Source: Mycobacterium sp. UM_WGJ (GTDB lineage: Bacteria; Actinomycetota; Actinomycetes; Mycobacteriales; Mycobacteriaceae). From it: 64,000 nt of DNA. Shown one piece after another: positions 6,517 through 36,269 of the stretch. A program made the position numbers and the translations under genes. The stretch spans positions 1-64,000 of the forward strand of contig NZ_AUWR01000071.1 of assembly GCF_000455125.1 (NCBI RefSeq), in the 5' to 3' direction. Within the stretch, counting starts at the first letter, position 1. The number at the start of each line of letters is the position of its first letter. The notes under the pieces were generated by a model. The model worked only from the letters and a program-made list of their open reading frames with translations, searched no databases and was not told where the DNA came from.

Positions 6517-8850
6517 TCAGTCCTTGCCCGCGGCGGCGGACTCTGCCGGAACCTCGACGTAGAGCGGGTTCTCCGGCAACTCGTCGACCGTCTCGCCGGA
6601 GCGGAAGTTACGCAGCGCGATCCAGGCGATCCAGACGAACGGCACCACACCGGCGCCGATCAGGATCGCGTCGCCGGGCAGGCGCAGCCATTCCAGCAGC
6701 GCGTTGCCGGGCTGGGTGATGTAACCCAGCGAGCGTGCCTCGAAGTAACCCGCGTTGACCGAGTGGAACAACTGCAGCACGCCCAGCGGCAACAGGGTGA
6801 CGAACACCATCCATGCCAGGCCGATGTTCATGCCCCAGAACGAGATCCGGGCCAGCTTGTTCGGCCACTGGTCCGCCGGGATCACGTAACGGAAGGCGAA
6901 CATCGCCAGGCCGACCGCCAGCATGCCGTAGACGCCGAACATCGCGGCATGCGCGTGGTTGGCGGTCAGTGCCGTCCCGATCTCGTAGTAGGACACCACC
7001 GGCAGGTTGATCAGGAACCCGAAGATGCCTGCGCCCAGGAAGTTCCAGAACCCGACGGCGACCAGGAACATCACCGCCCAGCGGGCCGGGAAGTTGTTCT
7101 GCTCACCGGCTTCCTGGCGGGCACCCAGCTGCAGGAAGGCCCAGGCCTCCACGGTCAGGAAAGTCAGGGGGATGACCTCGGCGGCCGAGAAGAACGCGCC
7201 CAGTGCCATGTGCTCCACCGGTGTGCCGGAGAAGTACAGGTGGTGCATGGTGCCGATCACGCCGCCGGCCGAATACAGGATGATGTCGAGGAAGATGACC
7301 AGCAGCGCAACGCGCTCGCGCACCACCCCGAGCTGAACGAAGATGTAGGCCACCATCGCGGTGGTGAACAGCTCCAGGAAGTCCTCCACCCACAGGTGCA
7401 CCATCCAGAACCGCCAGAAGTCGGCGACCGAGAAGTGCGTCTCACTGCCGGCCAGCAGGCTGGCCGCGTAGAACGTCGGGATGGCCAGGCCGGTGAAGAA
7501 GAACATCCAGGGCAGGTTCATCTTCGAGGTGGTGGCCAGCTTCGCGCGCATGCCGCGCCAGATGATGACGATCCACAAGAACAGGCCGACGATCAGCAGC
7601 AGCTGGAACAGTCGGGGCAGGTCCAGGAACTCCCACTGCTGGGAGAACAGGGTGCCGGGCTTGATAACCCCGAAGATCGACAGCGCCTCAAAGGCCAGCG
7701 AACCGAAGACCACCACTGCCAGCGCGCCGAGCAATCCGTATACCAGGACCGACTGCTTGCTGGGCTCGCGGCGGGTGATGAAGGGCACCAAGAAGATTCC
7801 ACCGGCCAGGAACGCCGCCGCGGTCCAGAACAGTGACAGCTGCAGGTGCCAGGTTCGGGCCAGGTTGTAGGGCAGGACCTTGGCGAGGTCGATCCCGTAG
7901 AACTCCGACAGATCCGCCCGATAGTGCTCGACGGCGCCGCCGAGCAGGACTTGGGCCAAGAACAGCACCGCGACCACGGCGAAGATCCAGATCGCGGCGC
8001 GCTGCGAGCGGGTCAGCGGCACCTCGCCGGGCTGGCGGAAGTGCAGTTTGGTCATCTCCGTGCCGTGCCAGCCGATGTTCTGGCTCCAGCGACCGTAGAC
8101 GGTGAACATGACGCCGATGCCGCCCAACAGCATGATCAGCGACAGCACCGACCACACCACCACCGATCCGGTGGGCCCGTTGTCGACGCGCGGCTCCGAG
8201 GGCCAGTTGTTGGTGTAGCTGTAGTTGTGGCCGGGCCGATCCGCGGCCGCCGCCCACGCGGTCCAGGCGAAGAACGCGGTCAGATCGCGGATCTCGCCGG
8301 GCTCGGTGATCATGTGCGGCAGCAGGCCGTACTTGGTGGAGGCTTCGCCGAAGTAGTCGGCGTAGTGCTGCTCGATGGTGTTGAAGGCCTGGACCTGTTT
8401 GTCGGTGAATACCAGCGTTTTGGTGTCCGCGTTATAGCGGTTGGTTCGGAACTCGGCGACCACGGCGTCGTGCGGGTTCGCCACGCCCTGCGCCTTGAAC
8501 TGATCGGCGACGTCTTCGGTGGCCAGCCGCAGATATTCGGCGGTGTAGTCGGGGCCCAGGTAGGCGCCGTGGCCCAACACCGAGCCGTACTGCATGAGGC
8601 CGCGGGCCTGATAGAGCTGTTGGCCACGGGTGATGTCGGCGCCGGTGAACAGCTGCTGACCGGATTCGGCAACGACCTTGTCCGGCATCGGCATTGACGC
8701 CGTGTACGTGCGATAGGCCAGGATGCCCATCACCAGGAATCCGAAGATCATGACCAGGGCCACGCCCTGCGCCCAACCCTTGCCGACCAGCGCTTCGGCA
8801 CGGCCGGATCCGGTGGTGGGCGCGCCCACCTGTGTCGCATCGGTGCTCAT
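6517..8850 (-). CDS. norB: Quinol-dependent nitric oxide reductase (qNOR)
   Basis: A 777-residue single-subunit qNOR of the haem-copper oxidase superfamily, reducing NO to N2O with electrons from the quinone pool. The N-terminal membrane helix (about 29-50) and extracytoplasmic cytochrome-c-like domain without a CxxCH motif are typical of qNOR. The catalytic part keeps HLWVEDFLELF, GTMHHLYFSG (two FeB histidines) and NHAHAAMFG (haem ligands). The ATG at 8850 (MSTDATQV) gives the usual length; an upstream in-frame start would add 55 implausible residues. It leads an operon with the Cys-rich protein and slipin. A cluster of TTAG/CTAA repeats lies just upstream. It is absent from the M. tuberculosis DosR locus. 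Confidence 0.95.
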   Translation of the reverse strand: MSTDATQVGAPTTGSGRAEALVGKGWAQGVALVMIFGFLVMGILAYRTYTASMPMPDKVVAESGQQLFTGADITRGQQLYQARGLMQYGSVLGHGAYLGPDYTAEYLRLATEDVADQFKAQGVANPHDAVVAEFRTNRYNADTKTLVFTDKQVQAFNTIEQHYADYFGEASTKYGLLPHMITEPGEIRDLTAFFAWTAWAAAADRPGHNYSYTNNWPSEPRVDNGPTGSVVVWSVLSLIMLLGGIGVMFTVYGRWSQNIGWHGTEMTKLHFRQPGEVPLTRSQRAAIWIFAVVAVLFLAQVLLGGAVEHYRADLSEFYGIDLAKVLPYNLARTWHLQLSLFWTAAAFLAGGIFLVPFITRREPSKQSVLVYGLLGALAVVVFGSLAFEALSIFGVIKPGTLFSQQWEFLDLPRLFQLLLIVGLFLWIVIIWRGMRAKLATTSKMNLPWMFFFTGLAIPTFYAASLLAGSETHFSVADFWRFWMVHLWVEDFLELFTTAMVAYIFVQLGVVRERVALLVIFLDIILYSAGGVIGTMHHLYFSGTPVEHMALGAFFSAAEVIPLTFLTVEAWAFLQLGARQEAGEQNNFPARWAVMFLVAVGFWNFLGAGIFGFLINLPVVSYYEIGTALTANHAHAAMFGVYGMLAVGLAMFAFRYVIPADQWPNKLARISFWGMNIGLAWMVFVTLLPLGVLQLFHSVNAGYFEARSLGYITQPGNALLEWLRLPGDAILIGAGVVPFVWIAWIALRNFRSGETVDELPENPLYVEVPAESAAAGKD

Positions 8851-16262: not shown

Positions 16263-17089
16263 GCGAGGACGAGTTCGAAGCCGCTACGCGACGGCTCGCC
16301 AACGACGTGTACGAGAAGGAATTACTGCGTCTGCAAAGCGAATTCGTCAAACTCCAGGAATGGGTCCGCGATACCGGCACCCGCGTGGTGGTTCTCTTCG
16401 AGGGCCGTGACGCCGCAGGCAAGGGCGGTGTCATCAAGCGCATCACGGAGTATCTGAGTCCGCGCACCGTGCGGATCGCGGCGCTACCGGCCCCCACCGA
16501 GCGGGAGCGGGGGGAGTGGTACTTCCAGCGCTACGTCGCGCACCTGCCGGCGCGTGGTGAGATCACGCTCTTCGACCGATCCTGGTACAACCGGGCCGGG
16601 GTGGAGAAGGTGATGGGATTCTGTACGCCCGAAGAGCATGCGCAGTTCCTCAAGCAGGCCCCGGTCTTCGAGCAACTGTTGATCGATGACGGAATCCTGT
16701 TGCGCAAGTATTGGTTCTCCGTCTCGCAGACCGAGCAGCTGCGCCGGTTCCGTAAGCGGCGCAACGACCCGCTGCGGCAGTGGAAGCTGTCGCCGATGGA
16801 TCTTGAGGCACTGCGCCGCTGGGAGGACTACTCCCGGGCCCGCGACGAGATGATGGCCCACACCGACACGGCGGCCAGCCCCTGGTACCTGGTCGAGTCG
16901 GAGCTGAAGACCCACGCGCGGCTGAACATGATGGCGCACCTGCTGCAGACCATTCCCTATCGCGAGGTGGAGCGCCAGCGGGTCAGCCTGCCGAAGAAGC
17001 CCATCGTCACCGGTTCTTACGAGCGGCCCGACCGTAGTCTCTACCGCTACGTGGACGATTACGCCGCCACGCTGCTGGGCGACGCGTGA
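16259..17089 (+). CDS. ppk2: Polyphosphate kinase 2
   Basis: A 276-residue class-I PPK2, homologous to Rv3232c, using polyphosphate to phosphorylate nucleoside diphosphates (GDP preferred in the mycobacterial enzyme). Walker A is FEGRDAAGKGGVIK at 47-60, Walker B/lid FDRSWYNRAGVEKVMGF near 101-117, followed by a basic lid QLRRFRKRRNDPLRQWKLSPMD. Length and motifs are complete. The GTG start lies within the preceding stop (GTGA overlap), so it is coupled to the WS/DGAT-like gene. It links polyphosphate to nucleotide pools, often under stress. Confidence 0.93.
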   Translation: MSEDEFEAATRRLANDVYEKELLRLQSEFVKLQEWVRDTGTRVVVLFEGRDAAGKGGVIKRITEYLSPRTVRIAALPAPTERERGEWYFQRYVAHLPARGEITLFDRSWYNRAGVEKVMGFCTPEEHAQFLKQAPVFEQLLIDDGILLRKYWFSVSQTEQLRRFRKRRNDPLRQWKLSPMDLEALRRWEDYSRARDEMMAHTDTAASPWYLVESELKTHARLNMMAHLLQTIPYREVERQRVSLPKKPIVTGSYERPDRSLYRYVDDYAATLLGDA

Positions 17090-20439: not shown

Positions 20440-21675
20440 TCAGCCGCCAGACGGCGGCCGCCCGACCATCATCGGCCGGAACCCGTAGCGGGGGGTGCCA
20501 AAGGCGCCGAACCCGCCGCGGCCGCCGGCGCCACCGGCACCCGCCATCGGCACCCCGCCTAGGGCACTGTGGCCGGCCTCGCCGGCCGCGACCCCGGCGG
20601 AGCCGGCGTAGCTGGCCAGTTGGACCGGGGCAGAGTGGACGGCGGCCGCGGGGAGCGCGGCGGCCCAGGTCGGCGGCACCGACAGCGGGCCCACCAGCGA
20701 GGCATGCCCGATGGTTCCGGCGACTCCGGCACCGACGCTCTTGGCGGCACCTTCAGCTGCCTTGGCGGCGCCTTCGGCGACCTTTTCGACAGCTTTGGTC
20801 GCGGGGACCAGCGAATGCGACAGGCCGTCCATGTCCTTGAACGCGGTGGTGAAAAGTCGCATGGGCGACACCATCCGGATGAACATGTCGAATGGGCTGG
20901 ACGCACTCAGCGTGGGCGATCCGGTCAGGCCTCGCATCAGATCGCCGAGCATGCCGTTGAACGTGATGGTCGATCCGTCCCACGTGATTGGATTGAGCAG
21001 ATCTTCGATCAAGTTGGATGCGGCTGGGCCGGCGAGGCTACCGAGCTGACCGGGCAACGTCGAGATCATGGACGCCAGCGTCTCGGCGTCGGTCGCGGTT
21101 GCAGTCCCGACGGCAAGGGCAACGGCGGCCTCCTGGGCTGCCACCCCAGCCGGGTTGACGGTGGGGGCCGGCGCCGTGAACGGCGTCAACTGCGATGCGG
21201 CTGCCGATTGTCCGGCATAGCCATACATGGTGGTGGCGTCCTGCACCCACATCTCGCCGTAGGCGGCTTCGGTAGCCGCGATCGCCGGCGTGTTCTGCCC
21301 CAGGACATTCGTCGCCATCAATGACATCAGTGTCTCGCGGTTGGCCTCGACCACCGCCGGCGGAACCGTCGAGGCAAAAGCCGCATCGTGAGCGGCGGCC
21401 GCAGCACCCGTTTGGGCTGCCACCTGCTCAGCCTGCGCGGCGGCCCGGTTGAGCCACTCCAGGTGCGGTTCGAACGCCTTCGCCATCGCGGCCGCAGCCG
21501 GCCCGTGCCAGTCCGCGCTCAGGTCGGCCAGCACAGTCGTGTAACTGGCGGCCGTGGTGTAGATCTCGGCGCCGAGGGTCTCCCAAGCGCGGGCAGCGGC
21601 CCACAGTGGCGCCGAGCCGGCGCCGGAGTACATCAGTGCGGAGTTGATCTCAGGCGGCAGTGTGCCGAAGTCCAT
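20440..21675 (-). CDS. PPE family protein, SVP subgroup
   Basis: A 411-residue PPE protein. The N-terminal helical domain (1-180) begins MDFGTLPPEINSALMYSGAG and has the WxG turn (DWHGP, near 55) used for pairing with PE and type VII secretion. GQNTPAI and YGEMWVQDA are standard. The variable C-terminal part carries the GPLSVPPTWAAALP motif of the SVP class and ends with GYGFRPMMVGRPPSGG. It is preceded by a PE gene with a 15-bp gap, so the two form a co-transcribed PE-PPE pair likely exported as a heterodimer by an ESX system. The substrate role is unknown. Confidence 0.92.
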   Translation of the reverse strand: MDFGTLPPEINSALMYSGAGSAPLWAAARAWETLGAEIYTTAASYTTVLADLSADWHGPAAAAMAKAFEPHLEWLNRAAAQAEQVAAQTGAAAAAHDAAFASTVPPAVVEANRETLMSLMATNVLGQNTPAIAATEAAYGEMWVQDATTMYGYAGQSAAASQLTPFTAPAPTVNPAGVAAQEAAVALAVGTATATDAETLASMISTLPGQLGSLAGPAASNLIEDLLNPITWDGSTITFNGMLGDLMRGLTGSPTLSASSPFDMFIRMVSPMRLFTTAFKDMDGLSHSLVPATKAVEKVAEGAAKAAEGAAKSVGAGVAGTIGHASLVGPLSVPPTWAAALPAAAVHSAPVQLASYAGSAGVAAGEAGHSALGGVPMAGAGGAGGRGGFGAFGTPRYGFRPMMVGRPPSGG

Positions 21676-21690
21676 AGCGTCGACCTAGCT

Positions 21691-21990
21691 CTAGGAGACC
21701 GCAGCCGCGTTTGCGGCCTCGGTGGCGTCGTAAGAACGAGCGCTGATGTTCAACACCATTTCCAGCATCTGCCGCATGGCCGTGGCTTGGGCGCTGACCT
21801 GCTGGTAGAGCTCGGCATGCGCGGCGAAAGTGGTGGCTGTCAGAAGCGACACCGGGTCGGCGCCCGCGGGGGTGATCTGGGTGGTGGGGGCAGCCGCCGC
21901 TGCGTTTCCGGCTTGCATGTCCGCGGTGATGGCCTGCAGCTCTCGGGCGCTCGCGGCCAGTACCTCCGGCTGTGTAACAACGGTCGACAC
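21691..21990 (-). CDS. PE family protein (PE-only, 99 aa)
   Basis: A 99-residue PE-only protein, one PE domain in length. GTG at 21990 gives MSTVVTQPEVLAASARELQ, with GGAG seven bases upstream; frames extending further lack a ribosome site and the PE start. The export signal YxxxD/E is present as YDATE near the C-terminus (about 89-93). First gene of a two-gene operon with the PPE gene 15 bp downstream. Confidence 0.92.
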   Translation of the reverse strand: MSTVVTQPEVLAASARELQAITADMQAGNAAAAAPTTQITPAGADPVSLLTATTFAAHAELYQQVSAQATAMRQMLEMVLNISARSYDATEAANAAAVS

Positions 21991-27876: not shown

Positions 27877-27903
27877 CGCCCAGCGCCTATCCGGCGCTGG
27901 GCG
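27877..27903. terminator. Perfect 11-bp hairpin, bidirectional terminator
   Basis: CGCCCAGCGCC at 27877-27887 pairs with 27893-27903 around TATCC. It begins 4 bp after the hydrolase stop and overlaps the stop codon of the convergent PPE gene, so it can end both transcripts. Confidence 0.7.
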
Positions 27904-29122
27904 GCCGGTTCATCACCCGGTGGCGGTAGCCGTATCGGGGAACGAACCGGAAACCGGTGGGCCCACCGCCGCCGCCGGCGGCCGCCGGCAACGCTGCCAG
28001 ACCGCCCATACCTGCCATCGCGGCGCGGGGCATCTCAGCGGGCCCGGCGGCGGCTGCCATCCGGCTGGAGACCAGCGTTGCCGCAGCCTGATTGGCCGTG
28101 CTAGGGGCAATGGGCCAACTCTGCGGCACCGACAGGGCGCCGACCTGTATGCCCTTGCCCACTGCGGCGGACGGCATCGCGGGGCTGAAACCCGATTTGA
28201 TTGCGGTGGATCCGGCACTCTTGGCAGCGCTCTCGGCTGCCTTCGCCGCGTCGGCGAGAACGTCCCGCACACCTGCTGGCCCGGAGCCGGCGTGCTGCCA
28301 GCCTTTAAAAGCTTCACCGATCGGATGCGCGTACCGCAGCGGGTGCAGCGGGTCCCTCCACATGTCGTCTAGCGGCTTCATCGTGTTGACGACCTTCTGC
28401 AGGAACGCGGTCAACGGCGGCACGGTGCCTCCAGGCGGCGTGGCCCCGGTGCCTGGAAGCACCGGGGAGCCCGGCGTGGTGGGTGTCCCGCTGGCAGTGC
28501 CGGCCTGGGCGATTGACTGGTTCAGCGCCTGCGTGGCCGCCGAGTTCCCAGCAGCGTTGCTGGTTGCGGCCGCCTGTTCGGCGGGCCCGGCCGGGTTGGT
28601 GGTCTGCGGCGGTGAGGTGAATTCGGACATCTGTGTTGCCGCTGCGGAGCCGGCCGCATAGGTGTACATCGCGGTCGCATCCTGAGCCCACATCTCCGCA
28701 TAGTGCGCTTCGGTCACTGCGATTGCCGGGGTGTTCTGACCGAAGAAATTGGTGGCAACCAGCGTCATCAGCTGGATTCGGTTGGCCAGTACGACGGGAG
28801 GAGGAACCGTCATTGCGAACGCTGCTTCGAAAGCGGCCGCGGCGGCCCTGGCTTGGGAGGCCGCGAGCTCAGCCTGCCCGGCGGTGGCCCTGAACCACGT
28901 GGTGAAGGGCAGCACTGCAGCCGCCATGGCGGCTGCAGACGGCCCACGCCACGGACCACTGGTCAGATCTGCGATGGTCATATCCACCGCGGCAGCGGTA
29001 ACGCTCACCTCTTGGGCCAGGACATCCCAGGCCCCCGCGGCTGCCAACAGTGGACCGGAGCCGGCTCCCGCGTACATCCGTGCGGAATTGACCTCCGGTG
29101 GCAGCGCCCCGTAGTCGATCAC
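27887..29122 (-). CDS. PPE family protein, SVP subgroup
   Basis: A 411-residue PPE protein. It starts [22 protein letters not shown]; the WxG turn is GPWRGPSA near 56. GQNTPAI and YAEMWAQDA follow. The middle is Pro/Thr/Gly-rich ([15 protein letters not shown]). [10 protein letters not shown] marks the SVP class and the end is [17 protein letters not shown] at 29122 is preferred to the TTG one codon earlier because AGGAG lies at better spacing. It follows another PPE gene by 15 bp on the same strand, making a PE-PPE-PPE cluster. Confidence 0.9.
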
Positions 29123-29137
29123 CAAGTCTCCTGGGCG

Positions 29138-30328
29138 CTATCCGCCGAACGGACGGCGCGGCATGACGGTTAGCTGGCTCCCGTAGCGGGGCCCGCCGAA
29201 GCCCTTGAAGCCGGCGCCTGCGGCGCCCGCAGCTCCTGCCGGCATCCCCGCCATCCCCATCGGGGGAGCCATCGGGGAGCCGCCGAGGATTCCGCCGGCG
29301 GCGGCGCCGCCGATCGGCTGCCACGTTCCTCCCGATACCGGGCCCAGGGCGGTCAATGGCGCCGATGGAACAGTCCAGCTTGGCGGCACCGAGAGCCCAC
29401 CGAGCGAGCCGGCGGCACCCGCCGCGGCGCGAGCAGCGCCCGAAGCTGCACCCGAAGCGGCGCCCGCAGCGCCCGCGGCGCCCGAAGCGGCGCCCTTGGC
29501 GGCGTCGGCGGCACCTGAGGCGGCCTTGGCTGCATCTTTCGCCCCATCGGCGAACATCTTCTGAAGACCGGTGAGACCGCTCATTCCGCGCCAGACCGCA
29601 CAGAGGTTGTTCGAGTACATGCTGATCTGGCCCGTGGCCATGTCCACGGCTTGGCCGCCCAGTTGGTAGTTCGGGTCGTCGAGGATGTCCCCGGCGGGAC
29701 TGCCCGTGCTCTCGGCCGACATCGGGCGGAACAGGTTCTGCAAGGCGGACGACGCCGGCGCCGCTTGGTTCGCACCGGTGGCAGGACCGGCCTCCGAGCC
29801 CGGGTTGGTCGGATTCGGCGGCGAGGTGAACTCGCTCAGCTCGGTGGCGGCGCTGGACTGGGCTTGATAGCCGTACATCGCCATGGTGTCTTGGGCCCAC
29901 ATCTCGCCGTGCTCGGCTTCGGTGGCCGCGATCGACGGGGTGTTCTGCCCGAGGATGTTGGTGGTCACCAACTCCTGCAGCAACTGGCGGTTGGCTGTGA
30001 CGGCTACCGGCGGAACCGTCTGGGCGTGTGCCGCCTCGTAGGCGGCTGCCGCGGAACGGCCCTGAGCGGCGGTCTGCTCGGCCTGCGCGGCAGTGAGTTC
30101 CATCCAGTTCACGTAGGGCGCGGCCGCTGTAGCCATCGCCGCTGATGCCGGTCCCAGCCATTCTTCGGAGGTCAACAGATTGATGACCGACCGGTACTCG
30201 GCCGCAATGGTTTTCAGTTCAGCGGCAAGCGCGCTCCAGGCCGAGGAGGCCACCACCATCGGCTCCGAACCGGGGCCGGAGTAGATCATGGTGGAGGTCA
30301 CCTCTGGCGGCAACGACAAGTAGTTCAT
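29138..30328 (-). CDS. PPE family protein with Ala-rich AAS/AAG repeat tract
   Basis: A 396-residue PPE protein beginning MNYLSLPPEVTSTMIYSGPG, with WxG equivalent EEWLGPAS, GQNTPSI and HGEMWAQDT. Residues about 260-310 form a low-complexity tract of KGAASGAAGAAGAASGAAS type, encoded by GC-rich repeats at 29400-29550. GGLSVPPSWTVP gives SVP subgroup membership; the end is FGGPRYGSQLTVMPRRPFGG-like. It lies 9 bp after the PE gene and 15 bp before the next PPE gene. Probably the direct partner of that PE protein. Confidence 0.9.
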   Translation of the reverse strand: MNYLSLPPEVTSTMIYSGPGSEPMVVASSAWSALAAELKTIAAEYRSVINLLTSEEWLGPASAAMATAAAPYVNWMELTAAQAEQTAAQGRSAAAAYEAAHAQTVPPVAVTANRQLLQELVTTNILGQNTPSIAATEAEHGEMWAQDTMAMYGYQAQSSAATELSEFTSPPNPTNPGSEAGPATGANQAAPASSALQNLFRPMSAESTGSPAGDILDDPNYQLGGQAVDMATGQISMYSNNLCAVWRGMSGLTGLQKMFADGAKDAAKAASGAADAAKGAASGAAGAAGAASGAASGAARAAAGAAGSLGGLSVPPSWTVPSAPLTALGPVSGGTWQPIGGAAAGGILGGSPMAPPMGMAGMPAGAAGAAGAGFKGFGGPRYGSQLTVMPRRPFGG

Positions 30329-30337
30329 CGCCGTCGC

Positions 30338-30637
30338 CTAACCGGCCGCGGCTGCGTTGGCAGCCTCAGTAGCGGCGTATGCGTTGGCTCCGTTGGTCAG
30401 GGCGTTGACGAACATTTCGTGGACGGCCACAGCCTGTGCGCTCACGGCCTGGTAGGTCTGGCCGTGAGCGGCGAACTGGGCAGCGGTCAGCGCGGAAACC
30501 TCGTCAGCGGCTGCCGGGACCACACCGGTGGTGGGTGTTGCCGCAGCGGCGCTGTGAGCGGCCAGCGACGAACCGATGGTTCGCAGATTGGCGACGGCGG
30601 CCAGCAACGCTTCGGGCTGCGTTGTGACGAACGACAT
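30338..30637 (-). CDS. PE family protein (PE-only, 99 aa)
   Basis: A single PE domain of 99 residues starting MSFVTTQPEALLAAVANLR. The ATG at 30637 has AGGAG spaced correctly; a longer frame to 30736 lacks both. The type VII secretion motif is YAATE near the C-terminus. First gene of the PE-PPE-PPE cluster. Confidence 0.92.
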   Translation of the reverse strand: MSFVTTQPEALLAAVANLRTIGSSLAAHSAAAATPTTGVVPAAADEVSALTAAQFAAHGQTYQAVSAQAVAVHEMFVNALTNGANAYAATEAANAAAAG

Positions 30638-32733: not shown

Positions 32734-33540
32734 ATGTGCGGGCGTTTCGCGGTAACCATCGATCCGGCGTTGCTGGCTACGCGTATCGATGCGATCAACG
32801 AGATGCCGGTCGGCGTCGACGCCGGTCCGAACTACAACGTGGCCCCCACCGACGGCATCGCGACCCTGGTCAGCCGGCACACCCAGGCGCCGCATGAACC
32901 CGGTGGTTCAGCGAGGTTCGACGTAGGAGAGGCGAAGCTGGGACCGCCGCATGAACCCGGTGACCAACCGACTCGACGGCTCCGGCGGATGCGCTGGGGA
33001 CTGGTGCCGCCGTGGACCAAGGCCGGCCCGAACGGGGCGCCGGCCCCGGGCGGCCCATTGTTGATCAATGCCCGTGCCGACAAGCTCACCACCTCACCGG
33101 CGTTCTCCGCGTCCGCGCAGCGGCGGCGCTGCCTGGTGCCGATGGACGGCTATTACGAATGGCGCGCAGAGCCCCAAGGTCGCAAGAAACCGTTCTATAT
33201 CCACGGTGACGGCGCGATGCTGTACGCGGCCGGTCTGTGGTCGGTCTGGCGCCCCGATCGGCTGTCCGACGCGTTGCTCAGCGTCGTAATCATCACCACC
33301 GCGGCCGTCGGGGAACTGGCCGGCATTCACGACCGGATGCCGTTACTGCTGGCCGAAAACCATTGGGAAGCTTGGCTGGATCCCGACGCTGCGATCGACA
33401 CCGCGTTGCTGGCCCGCCCGCCGGACGTGGCCGGGATCGCGGTGCGTGAGGTCTCGACCTTGGTCAACAGCGTGCGCAACAACTCGCCCGAGCTGATCGC
33501 ACCGGTCGAGCCGCAACCCGAGCAGGCCTACCTGCTTTAA
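32734..33540 (+). CDS. SRAP/HMCES-family abasic-site protein
   Basis: A 268-residue SRAP protein (YedK/HMCES family; Rv3226c homologue), which crosslinks to abasic sites in single-stranded DNA. The start MCGRF leaves Cys2 as the N-terminal catalytic residue after Met removal, fixing the ATG at 32734. Other conserved parts are [25 protein letters not shown] (Glu) and GIHDRMP (His). Between NVAPT and MRWGL an insert carries PHEPG twice, 57 bp apart in DNA, lengthening the protein. Its stop overlaps the stop of the convergent PPE gene by 2 bases. Confidence 0.93.
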
Positions 33541-34811
33541 CGCCCGACCAGACTCCGTTTCTCCAGCGCGTACTCCTCGGCCGTGAGAATCCCGGCGTTG
33601 CGCAGTTCGGCCAGCTCGCGCAGCTCGATGTCGGCGCCCATCAACAGAGCGAACGCCGAGGACGCGGGCAACTCCGGCAGCTGGTTGGGCCGCGATACCG
33701 GCGGCGGGGTGACGGTACCGGCGGTCGGGATGCGGTGCCCCTGGGTGGCGCCGGCCCCGGCTCGCCCGGCCACGCCGGCTGCGGCCATCCCTGCCGCTGG
33801 GATCACCGTCTCACCGGCGGCCACGGCCGGGACAGCGGAGGTGGCGGCGGCCGTACCGGCGGACGCCAGCGACATACCTATCTGCGGCGCCACCGCCGCC
33901 GGTGCGGCCGCCGCCCAGGCCAGCGGCACCGACAGCCCGCTGATCGAGGTCGCCGAGGCCAGATTGGCCGAGACCGGCAGCGCACCGGCCATCGCAGCAC
34001 GCAGCAATTCCTGGCCCACCTCGGCGGCGCCCATCGCATCGATCAAGAACGTCCCAAGCGCGTCGACGCCGAACGTGCCCATCGAGTCGACAACCAGCTC
34101 GACACCGGCGATGCCGACCTCGATTGCGGGCTCGCTGATCAAGATTGCGTCTGCACCAATGGCCTCAGCCAGGGCGGACGAGGACTCCAGCGCATGGGTC
34201 AAAGTGGTGATGACGCCCTCGCCGTGGCCCTCCGAGCTGGTAGCGGCCGCCTGCATGACGGCCGCTGACTGAGCCGATGTAGCGGCGGAGTTGGTGGTGC
34301 GCGGCGGCTGCCTGAACGGGCTCAGCCGGCCGGCGGCGGCGGCACCGGCGGCATAGCCGTACATGGCGGTGGCATCCTGGGCCCACATCTCGTAGTAGTG
34401 GGCCTCGGTGGTCGCGATAGCGGGTGTGTTCTGGCCCAGGAAGTTGGTCGCGACCAAAGTCATCAGCAGGCTGCGGTTGGCCGCGACGACCGGCGGCGGC
34501 ACCGTCATGGCGAAAGCTGACTCGTAGGCGGCGGTGGCGGCGCGGGCCGCGATGGCGGTCTCCTCGGCCTGGATCGCGGCGGTGTGCAGCCATTGGGCGT
34601 ACGGTGCTGCGGCGGCGGCCATGGCCCGCGCGCTGGGGCCGGCCCAACCGGAGCCCAGTTCGGTGAGCACCGAGGCGTAGGCGAGTCCGGCGCTGTGTAG
34701 CTCAGCGCCCAGCGCATCCCAGGATGACGCCGCGGCGAGCATGGGGCCGGCGCCCGCGCCGGAATACATCCGGAGGGAGTTGACCTCCGGTGGCAGCAAT
34801 GCGAAATCCAT
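33537..34811 (-). CDS. PPE protein with C-terminal SHOCT domain
   Basis: A 424-residue PPE protein. The PPE domain starts [20 protein letters not shown], has SGWAGPSA (WxG) and GQNTPAI. The middle contains [21 protein letters not shown], a short repeat of GTFxxDxxG units also present in its neighbour. GLSVPLAWA marks an SVP-type segment. The last 30 residues, [15 protein letters not shown] followed by [14 protein letters not shown], match a SHOCT domain, a short helical oligomerisation module found at C-termini of many bacterial proteins. The standard SVP tail is replaced. It lies 5 bp after its paralogue. No PE gene adjoins. Confidence 0.9.
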
Positions 34812-34816
34812 GGGGG

Positions 34817-36157
34817 CTACCGGCCGAGAAGGCGCTGCTTTTCCCGGGTGAACTCTTCTTCGGTGAGGATCCCGGCATCGCGCAGATCGGCCAGTTCCCG
34901 CAGCTCACCGGAGATCCGGGTGATGGGGCCGTGCAATGGACGTACCGGCGGTTTCTTCGGCTTCTCGGTTTGGTCGCGCTGTTTGACCATGGCGCGCGGT
35001 GCCCGTTTGGGGGCGGCTTTCGGGTTCGGGGTGGCGGTGCGACCCCGCCCGAGGCCCGCGGTGGCCCGGCCGGCCAACCCGGCGGCGCCGATGGCGGCCA
35101 GCGGCAGCGCGGAGGCCCCGGCCGCGGCGGCGGGCACTGCAGCTTGCCCGGCGTTGGGCAATGCGGCGCTGAACTGCTGGATCACGGTGGTCGTCGGCGC
35201 CGCGGTGGCCCAGGCCTGCGGCACCGACAGACCGCTGAGCGTGGCCGCTTCACCCATCTCGGCGCTCACCGGAGTGAGCGCGCCGGTCAGAGCCATCTCC
35301 GGCAGCAGTTCACTCTCGATCTCGCCGACGCCGATCAGGTCGATCCCGAAGGTGCCGGCCGCGTCCACGCCGAAGGTACCGGCCGAGTCGATGACGAAAG
35401 TGCCGAACAGGCTGGAGGCCAATGCCAGGTAGGACGCCGCCAGCCCGGGCTCCATTGCCGCCGCTGAACCGATGGAACTCGTCAGCGTCGCATTGGATCC
35501 CGCTGCCGCCGATCCTGGCGCGCCGAGACCCTGCAGTGCCTGGGTGATCGCCGCAGCCGCGGAATCGGCGTGGCCGCCTGCCGCGGTGGCTGTGGCCTGG
35601 CCTACCGCTCCGGCCTGATTCGCCGTGCCGGTGGGATTGGTGGTGCGCGGGGGCTCGGTGAACGGAACCAGCCTGGTGGCGGCAGCGGAGCTGGTGGCAT
35701 AGCCGTACATGGCGGTGGCGTCCTGGGCCCACATCTCGTAGTACTGGGCGTCGGTGGCCGCGATGGCGGCCGTGTTCTGACCCAGATAGTTGGTGGCGAG
35801 CAGCGACATCATCTGAGTGCGGTTGGCGGTGACCGCCGGGGGAGGCACGGTCATCGCGAACGCCGCATCGTAGGCGGCGGCCGCCGTGCGGGCCGACGAA
35901 GCGGTGTGTTCGGCCTGGGCGGCGGTGGCATGCATCCACTGGGCGTACGGTGCCGCGGCGGCGGCCATCGCGGCGGCGCTGGGGCCGGCCCAGCCGGCGG
36001 ACAGCTCATCGATCATCGAGTCGCAGGCCAGTCCCGCGCTGTTCAGTTCGGCGGCCAGGGCGCTCCAGGCGGCGGCAGCGGCCAGCAATGGCTGTGCTCC
36101 TGCCCCCGAATACATCCGGCTCGAGTTGACCTCTGGTGGCAGAATCGCGAAATCCAT
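34817..36157 (-). CDS. PPE protein with C-terminal SHOCT domain
   Basis: A 446-residue paralogue of the next PPE gene. It starts [20 protein letters not shown] with SAGWAGPSA as WxG and GQNTAAI. Residues about 235-270 repeat [33 protein letters not shown] is the SVP motif. After a basic segment (about 370-405: [17 protein letters not shown]) comes a SHOCT domain ending [20 protein letters not shown] and REKQRLLGR. First gene of the two-PPE operon. The basic stretch before SHOCT suggests nucleic-acid or acidic-surface contact but that is inference. Confidence 0.9.
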
Positions 36158-36269
36158 TGTCAGATAGGCCTGTTATTAGTAGGCGTCATGGTGCCTCCTG
36201 AATTTCCCGGTTCGCGCCGGTGCGGCAGGCCACCGGGCGCACTCGGTCTCCGTGACCGTAAACAGTCAA

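Follow-up and report, generated by a model that had tools for sequence, protein, structure and literature searches.

Among the closest described systems for the two proteins considered here is the PPE-SVP subfamily of PPE proteins (PF12484), to which both PPE15 and PPE51 belong. PPE-SVP proteins have been reported as substrates of the ESX-5 system (PMC7028111), and PPE51, when co-expressed with PE19, is reported to be exported by ESX-5 and exposed at the surface (PMC12607722). PE19 and PPE51 are a published pair whose genes are not adjacent, and they provide a precedent for distant partners (PMC12209268). For the SHOCT domain, the founding paper proposed that it either binds to something else or acts in localisation (PMC3581485), and in 2024 SHOCT-like domains were predicted to anchor proteins at the inner leaflet (PMC11237479). 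Searching by title and abstract, we found no description of PPE proteins that carry a SHOCT domain; most subscription papers lay outside this search, and the supplementary architecture table of PMC3581485 may list the combination. Two papers were found to contain both words: one mentions SHOCT and PPE once each, for different proteins (PMC11925935), and the other, judging by its title, concerns mouse cells. We describe here a pair of genes that combine the two, found in a 64,000-nucleotide stretch of mycobacterial DNA (the window), and present PPE-SVP-SHOCT as a new variant within the PPE-SVP subfamily, for which we found no published description.

Domain architecture of the tandem pair

The two genes lie in tandem on the minus strand, with B behind A after a gap of 5 nt. 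A (34820..36157, stop codon to 34817) encodes 446 aa and B (33540..34811, stop codon to 33537) encodes 424 aa, the two proteins sharing 51% identity. Each begins with a PPE domain of about 165-180 aa that carries the PPE motif (PF00823; E 1.4e-60 in A, 2.4e-63 in B); together with a fold match to PPE15 and PPE41, this places both in the PPE family. An earlier note on this DNA, made from the sequence alone, had read 33537..36157 as two tandem PPE genes, and it was right in coordinates, strand and order. Neither promoters nor terminators were found at the pair, and a viral fold search with B gave no match at E <= 0.001. On the same strand the window also holds two PE-PPE pairs and one more SHOCT-less PPE-SVP gene (20443-21981 and 27890-30628, minus strand).

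The earlier note had further proposed that SHOCT modules replace the usual C-terminus of these proteins, and this is wrong. A retains a PPE-SVP C-terminal domain at aa 298-378 (35024..35266, minus strand; PF12484, 34.8 bits against a cut-off of 23) and B at aa 281-367 (33711..33971, minus strand; 23.3 bits, barely over the same cut-off). Because this domain scores above the cut-off in both proteins, the SHOCT module is appended rather than substituted, and both belong to the PPE-SVP subfamily, B only just. They share with that subfamily the PPE bundle and the SVPxxW core, and their lengths lie inside its reported range of 350-468 aa (PMC7028111). They differ from it in the linker and SHOCT hairpin that they add beyond the SVP region, and in the first Gly, three residues ahead of SVP, which is Ser in A and in B (S-G-L-S-V-P). 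The middle and SVP parts of B (33771-34316, minus strand) have evolved faster than those of A, with dN/dS values of 0.50 and 0.38 as against 0.24 and 0.19.

Both proteins also contain GTF.(V/I)D repeats, three in A (aa 252-275; 35333..35404, minus strand) and two in B (aa 245-260; 34032..34079, minus strand), which are retained in orthologues, and the suggestion that the pair shares GTFGVDA-type repeats is thus confirmed. Repeats of this type are found in just 27 of 117 SHOCT-bearing PPEs (0 of 121 SHOCT-less ones), all 27 being members of the Mycolicibacter pair described below or one of three relatives (L066, L068 and L089), and so they are no marker of a PPE-SHOCT subclass.

The SHOCT tail itself (PF09851) spans aa 418-444 of A (34826..34906, minus strand) and aa 396-419 of B (33555..33626, minus strand). 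In the protein scan A scored 31.6 bits (E 1.3e-7) against a cut-off of 27, so that all three Pfam domains of A exceed their cut-offs, and B scored 21.3 bits (E 2.2e-4); the genome scan gave 36.1 and 25.5 bits respectively. The claim of a SHOCT domain in both proteins, which the earlier note wished to see checked by HMM, therefore stands for A. In B, where only the PPE and PPE-SVP domains are above the Pfam cut-off, the SHOCT match is sub-threshold and is backed by 12 orthologues besides B itself and by a predicted hairpin. Structural prediction of the C-terminus, a further check suggested at that time, places two short helices at the tail of each protein. For A, AlphaFold2 predicts a confident PPE bundle, a stretch with pLDDT below 50 over residues 191-410 and then helices at 411-427 and at 433-445, the block means over 411-446 being 70-82. 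For B, a confident bundle is followed by pLDDT below 50 across nearly all of 204-381 and then by helices at 383-405 and 411-423, with a block mean pLDDT of 58 over 381-390 and block means of 85, 93, 94 and 82 over 391-424. Both models are of monomers only.

In having about 28 C-terminal residues, an invariant Gly, a near-invariant Glu (80 of 82) and two helices, the tails agree with what is reported of SHOCT proteins in the founding study (PMC3581485). They differ in their carrier, a PPE protein of the type VII secretion kind, and in one residue: Arg420 of A is invariant, along with Gly429 and Leu443, across 82 aligned proteins (alignment A3, comprising 80 of the 94 proteins collected and the two window proteins; alignment A4 holds 52 of them and the same two), whereas by our own count it is present in 1 of 9 distinct readable tails from other SHOCT loci, of which 15 of 28 yielded a tail and two of the nine are near-identical. 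Compared with solved structures, the tail profile is closest to YnzC (E 0.007), and the top matches are all of the YnzC/UPF0291 type (PDB 2jvd, 3bhp and 2hep; 24 residues, E 0.007 to 0.015). YnzC differs in being a separate small protein, and the match is weak and offers a lead only.

The SHOCT tail is the best-conserved part of the second half in both A and B. In A (14 orthologues, the window protein included) its mean identity is 0.909 with a dN/dS of 0.107, placing it above the PPE domain (0.827 and 0.179); in B (13 orthologues, counted likewise) the values are 0.821 and 0.199, which rank it second to the PPE domain (0.853 and 0.165). It is gap-free in both sets of orthologues and sits beside a fast-evolving linker. 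The linker of A, between the SVP and SHOCT parts (aa 365-414; 34916..35065, minus strand), has a mean identity of 0.600, a dN/dS of 0.503 and a pLDDT below 50 up to residue 410, and that of B a mean identity of 0.603 and a dN/dS of 0.515.

Recurrence and origin of the architecture

The genome from which the window comes has 37 PPE matches, and the SHOCT tail is present on 4 of the 37 PPEs recovered: A, B and one each on C40 and C66. The nearest named loci are from Mycolicibacter species, for example M. heraklionensis and M. icosiumassiliensis, which makes this group the probable origin of the window. These loci come from a scan of named genomes in which 222 pattern matches gave 165 relatives; since the best 80 of the 165 were kept, the absence of a species from the list means nothing. 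Both tail-bearing paralogues are present in 14 of 15 Mycolicibacter-type loci (the window, two further genomes and twelve named loci). At the exception (L052, 6439-7719), gene B continues into other sequence, which we take to be a transposase, and the tail is missing. Tail-bearing PPEs were also found at loci of M. persicum, M. celatum, M. gordonae, M. asiaticum, M. colombiense and M. scrofulaceum, among others.

Tails were called by profile, the regular expressions used earlier having proved too strict (14, then 16, of 36 PPEs). This profile is wider than the Pfam SHOCT model, given that the latter, tried on seven relatives that had been chosen for their tails, found the domain in 5 and exceeded its cut-off in 2. 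With its 45 positions the profile has matches in 182 of 248 genomes of the genus at E <= 1e-5, with up to 12 per genome, and the weaker of these are probably for the most part ordinary SHOCT proteins. Strong matches (best E <= 5.5e-15) are present in 90 of the 248 by our own count, the line having been chosen after viewing the match list and leaving out six genomes at 1.3e-12 to 1.8e-10. We sampled 20 of the strong places listed, one per genome and all at E <= 2.1e-19, and in every case a PPE match and the tail lay in one frame, the PPE domain being partial in one that fell at a contig end. PPE-SVP-SHOCT is, then, an architecture that recurs across many species of the genus and is not a local one.

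Whether the architecture arose once is a matter on which our trees differ. In a first tree, built from the PPE domain only (157 rows), the distribution of the tail needs 10 changes, 5 of them forced by supported branches, compared with about 47 in shuffles, and this argues against one origin. Four SHOCT-less rows within SHOCT clades of that tree are damaged or interrupted copies. These were omitted from a second tree, as were 5 long or cut rows and then rows without an SVP-like motif or with ends that were too short (148 to 117), before thinning from 117 to 80. This second tree was built from the PPE domain and SVP part, with the tail left out, and 30 of its 80 rows have SHOCT; here the tail needs 3 changes, 1 forced, against 24.2 in shuffles. 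A tree uniting all 30 SHOCT rows has a log-likelihood 26.55 above that of the free tree and a p-AU of 0.861, so a single origin of PPE-SHOCT is not rejected, nor is it proven. The earlier note had spoken of a distinct PPE subclass, and this holds in part: the architecture recurs and one origin is not rejected, but the group lies inside the PPE-SVP subfamily rather than beside it, and the first tree asks for at least five changes.

PE partners, a probable ESX-5 link and a putative leader ORF

Genes for PE and PPE partners may form an operon in which the PE gene lies directly upstream, and this is not the arrangement of the A/B pair. The window has two PE matches (30356-30628 and 21709-21981), each directly ahead of another PPE gene, which bears out the observation that the pair lacks a neighbouring PE. 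Among the distinct PPEs collected, a PE was found within 600 bp upstream of 5 of 116 testable SHOCT-bearing PPEs and of 42 of 118 testable SHOCT-less ones, 1 and 3 further PPEs respectively lying at locus edges; put the other way, 111 of 116 and 76 of 118 have no adjacent PE. Since so many SHOCT-less PPEs share it, the lack of a PE is not distinctive. We also considered PE adjacency as a trait of the subclass: the raw Fisher p was 7e-10, yet the 5 phylogenetically independent pairs, too few for a test, gave no signal. The idea that the SHOCT tail is an internal stand-in for the PE protein was rejected, as 81 of 82 proteins have no YxxxD/E among their last 60 residues and the hairpin is far shorter than a PE.

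Several features of the PPE domain point towards ESX-5. The closest counterpart of the N-terminal bundle is PPE15 as seen in complex with PE8 and EspG5 (E 7.2e-54), and the bundle of A matches PPE15 with a TM of 0.94 over the target and 56% identity. The putative chaperone-binding hh tip residue (aa 125), placed by alignment with PPE41 for the hh motif reported in PMC12209268, is L in 43 and F in 39 of the 82 aligned proteins and so hydrophobic in all of them. A PE tree named no partner, with 2 of 41 inner branches starred. In two complete genomes, G016 (10 PE and 31 PPE matches) and G022 (13 and 41), two PEs each lie at least 1.4 kb from the next same-strand PPE, both in one region (coordinates read by eye). 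In G016 (L177) these PEs, at 7591-7863 and 16509-16781, lie in a region encoding EccB, EccC, EccD, mycosin, EccE, EccA and WXG100-type proteins. From its gene order we read this region as ESX-5; no family model identified it as such, and a putative EspG had no match.

Directly ahead of A is a putative leader ORF of 9 codons (36160..36189, minus strand), which ends with its stop codon 2 nt short of A and has an AGGAGG ribosome-binding motif in front of it (36194..36199, minus strand). An ORF of 8-10 codons with an AGGAG-type site, its stop always 2 nt short of the PPE start, is present at 14 of 15 A-orthologue loci, L055 being the sole exception, and the stop codons differ; the ORF had been spotted by eye in the loci on which it was then tested, and two of these (L031 and L051) have identical mini-ORFs and may be one lineage. 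A scan for ORFs of 4-30 codons with their stop no more than 15 nt away, with 20 rows skipped, found any such ORF in 0.9% of shuffled upstream sequences. The control is more severe with real upstream sequences than with shuffles: among SHOCT-less PPEs, 7 of 69 without a PE and 1 of 33 led by one were positive, mostly with longer ORFs and two with a stop at 2 nt, and among the other SHOCT-bearing PPEs the counts were 0 of 97 and 0 of 5. A ribosome-binding motif of their own was seen in 2 of 38 PPEs behind a PE versus 78 of 180 PE-less PPEs. Judged from sequence, this pattern fits translation that is coupled from the preceding gene, which for A would be the mini-ORF.

Possible roles of the SHOCT tail

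Our preferred reading, to which we give a probability of roughly 0.45, is that A and B are ESX-5 substrates that borrow a distant PE and carry a conserved docking tail. According to this reading, PPE-SVP proteins gained a C-terminal SHOCT hairpin on what would be a flexible tether. Each PPE domain would pair with a PE encoded elsewhere, the candidates being those PEs that stand alone in the ESX-5-type locus, would be chaperoned by EspG5 and would be exported via ESX-5. The middle and SVP part may then be located at the outer envelope, where the hairpin could serve for docking or retention, like a clip that holds on to a different partner rather than to its own kind. Such a role would be unusual, given that SHOCT-like domains elsewhere are predicted to be intracellular at the membrane and that two non-PPE SHOCT proteins of the same genome look membrane-bound. 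The surprise expressed in the earlier note, at a mostly intracellular module on a protein of exported type, stands in view of the inner-leaflet prediction. We think it rather unlikely that a more far-reaching account holds in its entirety, namely a subclass of single origin in which an inside-cell module was moved onto ESX-5 substrates as a docking clip beyond the inner membrane, and in which, in the Mycolicibacter branch, the conserved leader ORF of 8-10 codons stands in for the PE gene in delivering ribosomes to the PPE start.

If the tail behaves as SHOCT-like domains are predicted to (PMC11237479), it may act before or instead of export, keeping the PPE protein back at the inner leaflet or the entrance to ESX-5. 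The two other SHOCT proteins of the genome, membrane-like by eye and with the tail at their C-terminus, agree with this, but the PPE domain still looks like that of an exported ESX-5 substrate and evolves under strong constraint (dN/dS 0.17-0.18), and we consider this reading unlikely. The presence of the tail on both tandem paralogues could also suggest self-association, by which A would assemble with B, or either with copies of itself, into larger complexes, and the formation of surface complexes has been investigated for PPE51 (PMC12607722). Oligomerisation does not define the SHOCT domain, and the SHOCT fusion examined in the founding study is reported as monomeric (PMC3581485); with that test negative we have set aside oligomerisation as the default reading, and for A and B it is only a weak hypothesis that we regard as quite unlikely. 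Our literature searches found no function for the tail in PPE proteins, as might be expected of a passive leftover without a role, but few parts of either protein are as constrained as the tail, strong matches to it occur in over a third of the genus genomes sampled (the 90 counted above), and this explanation is very improbable.

What is specific to the function of a PPE protein is believed to reside in its C-terminal part, which in PPE51 is reported as undefined by AlphaFold (PMC12607722). A conserved and foldable module at the very end of the protein can be removed or used as bait, which would give a handle on both partner and location. As the predicted position of SHOCT-like domains at the inner leaflet (PMC11237479) conflicts with a secreted carrier, the pair is a useful test case, and PPE-SHOCT proteins in turn give SHOCT a system in which export can be followed.
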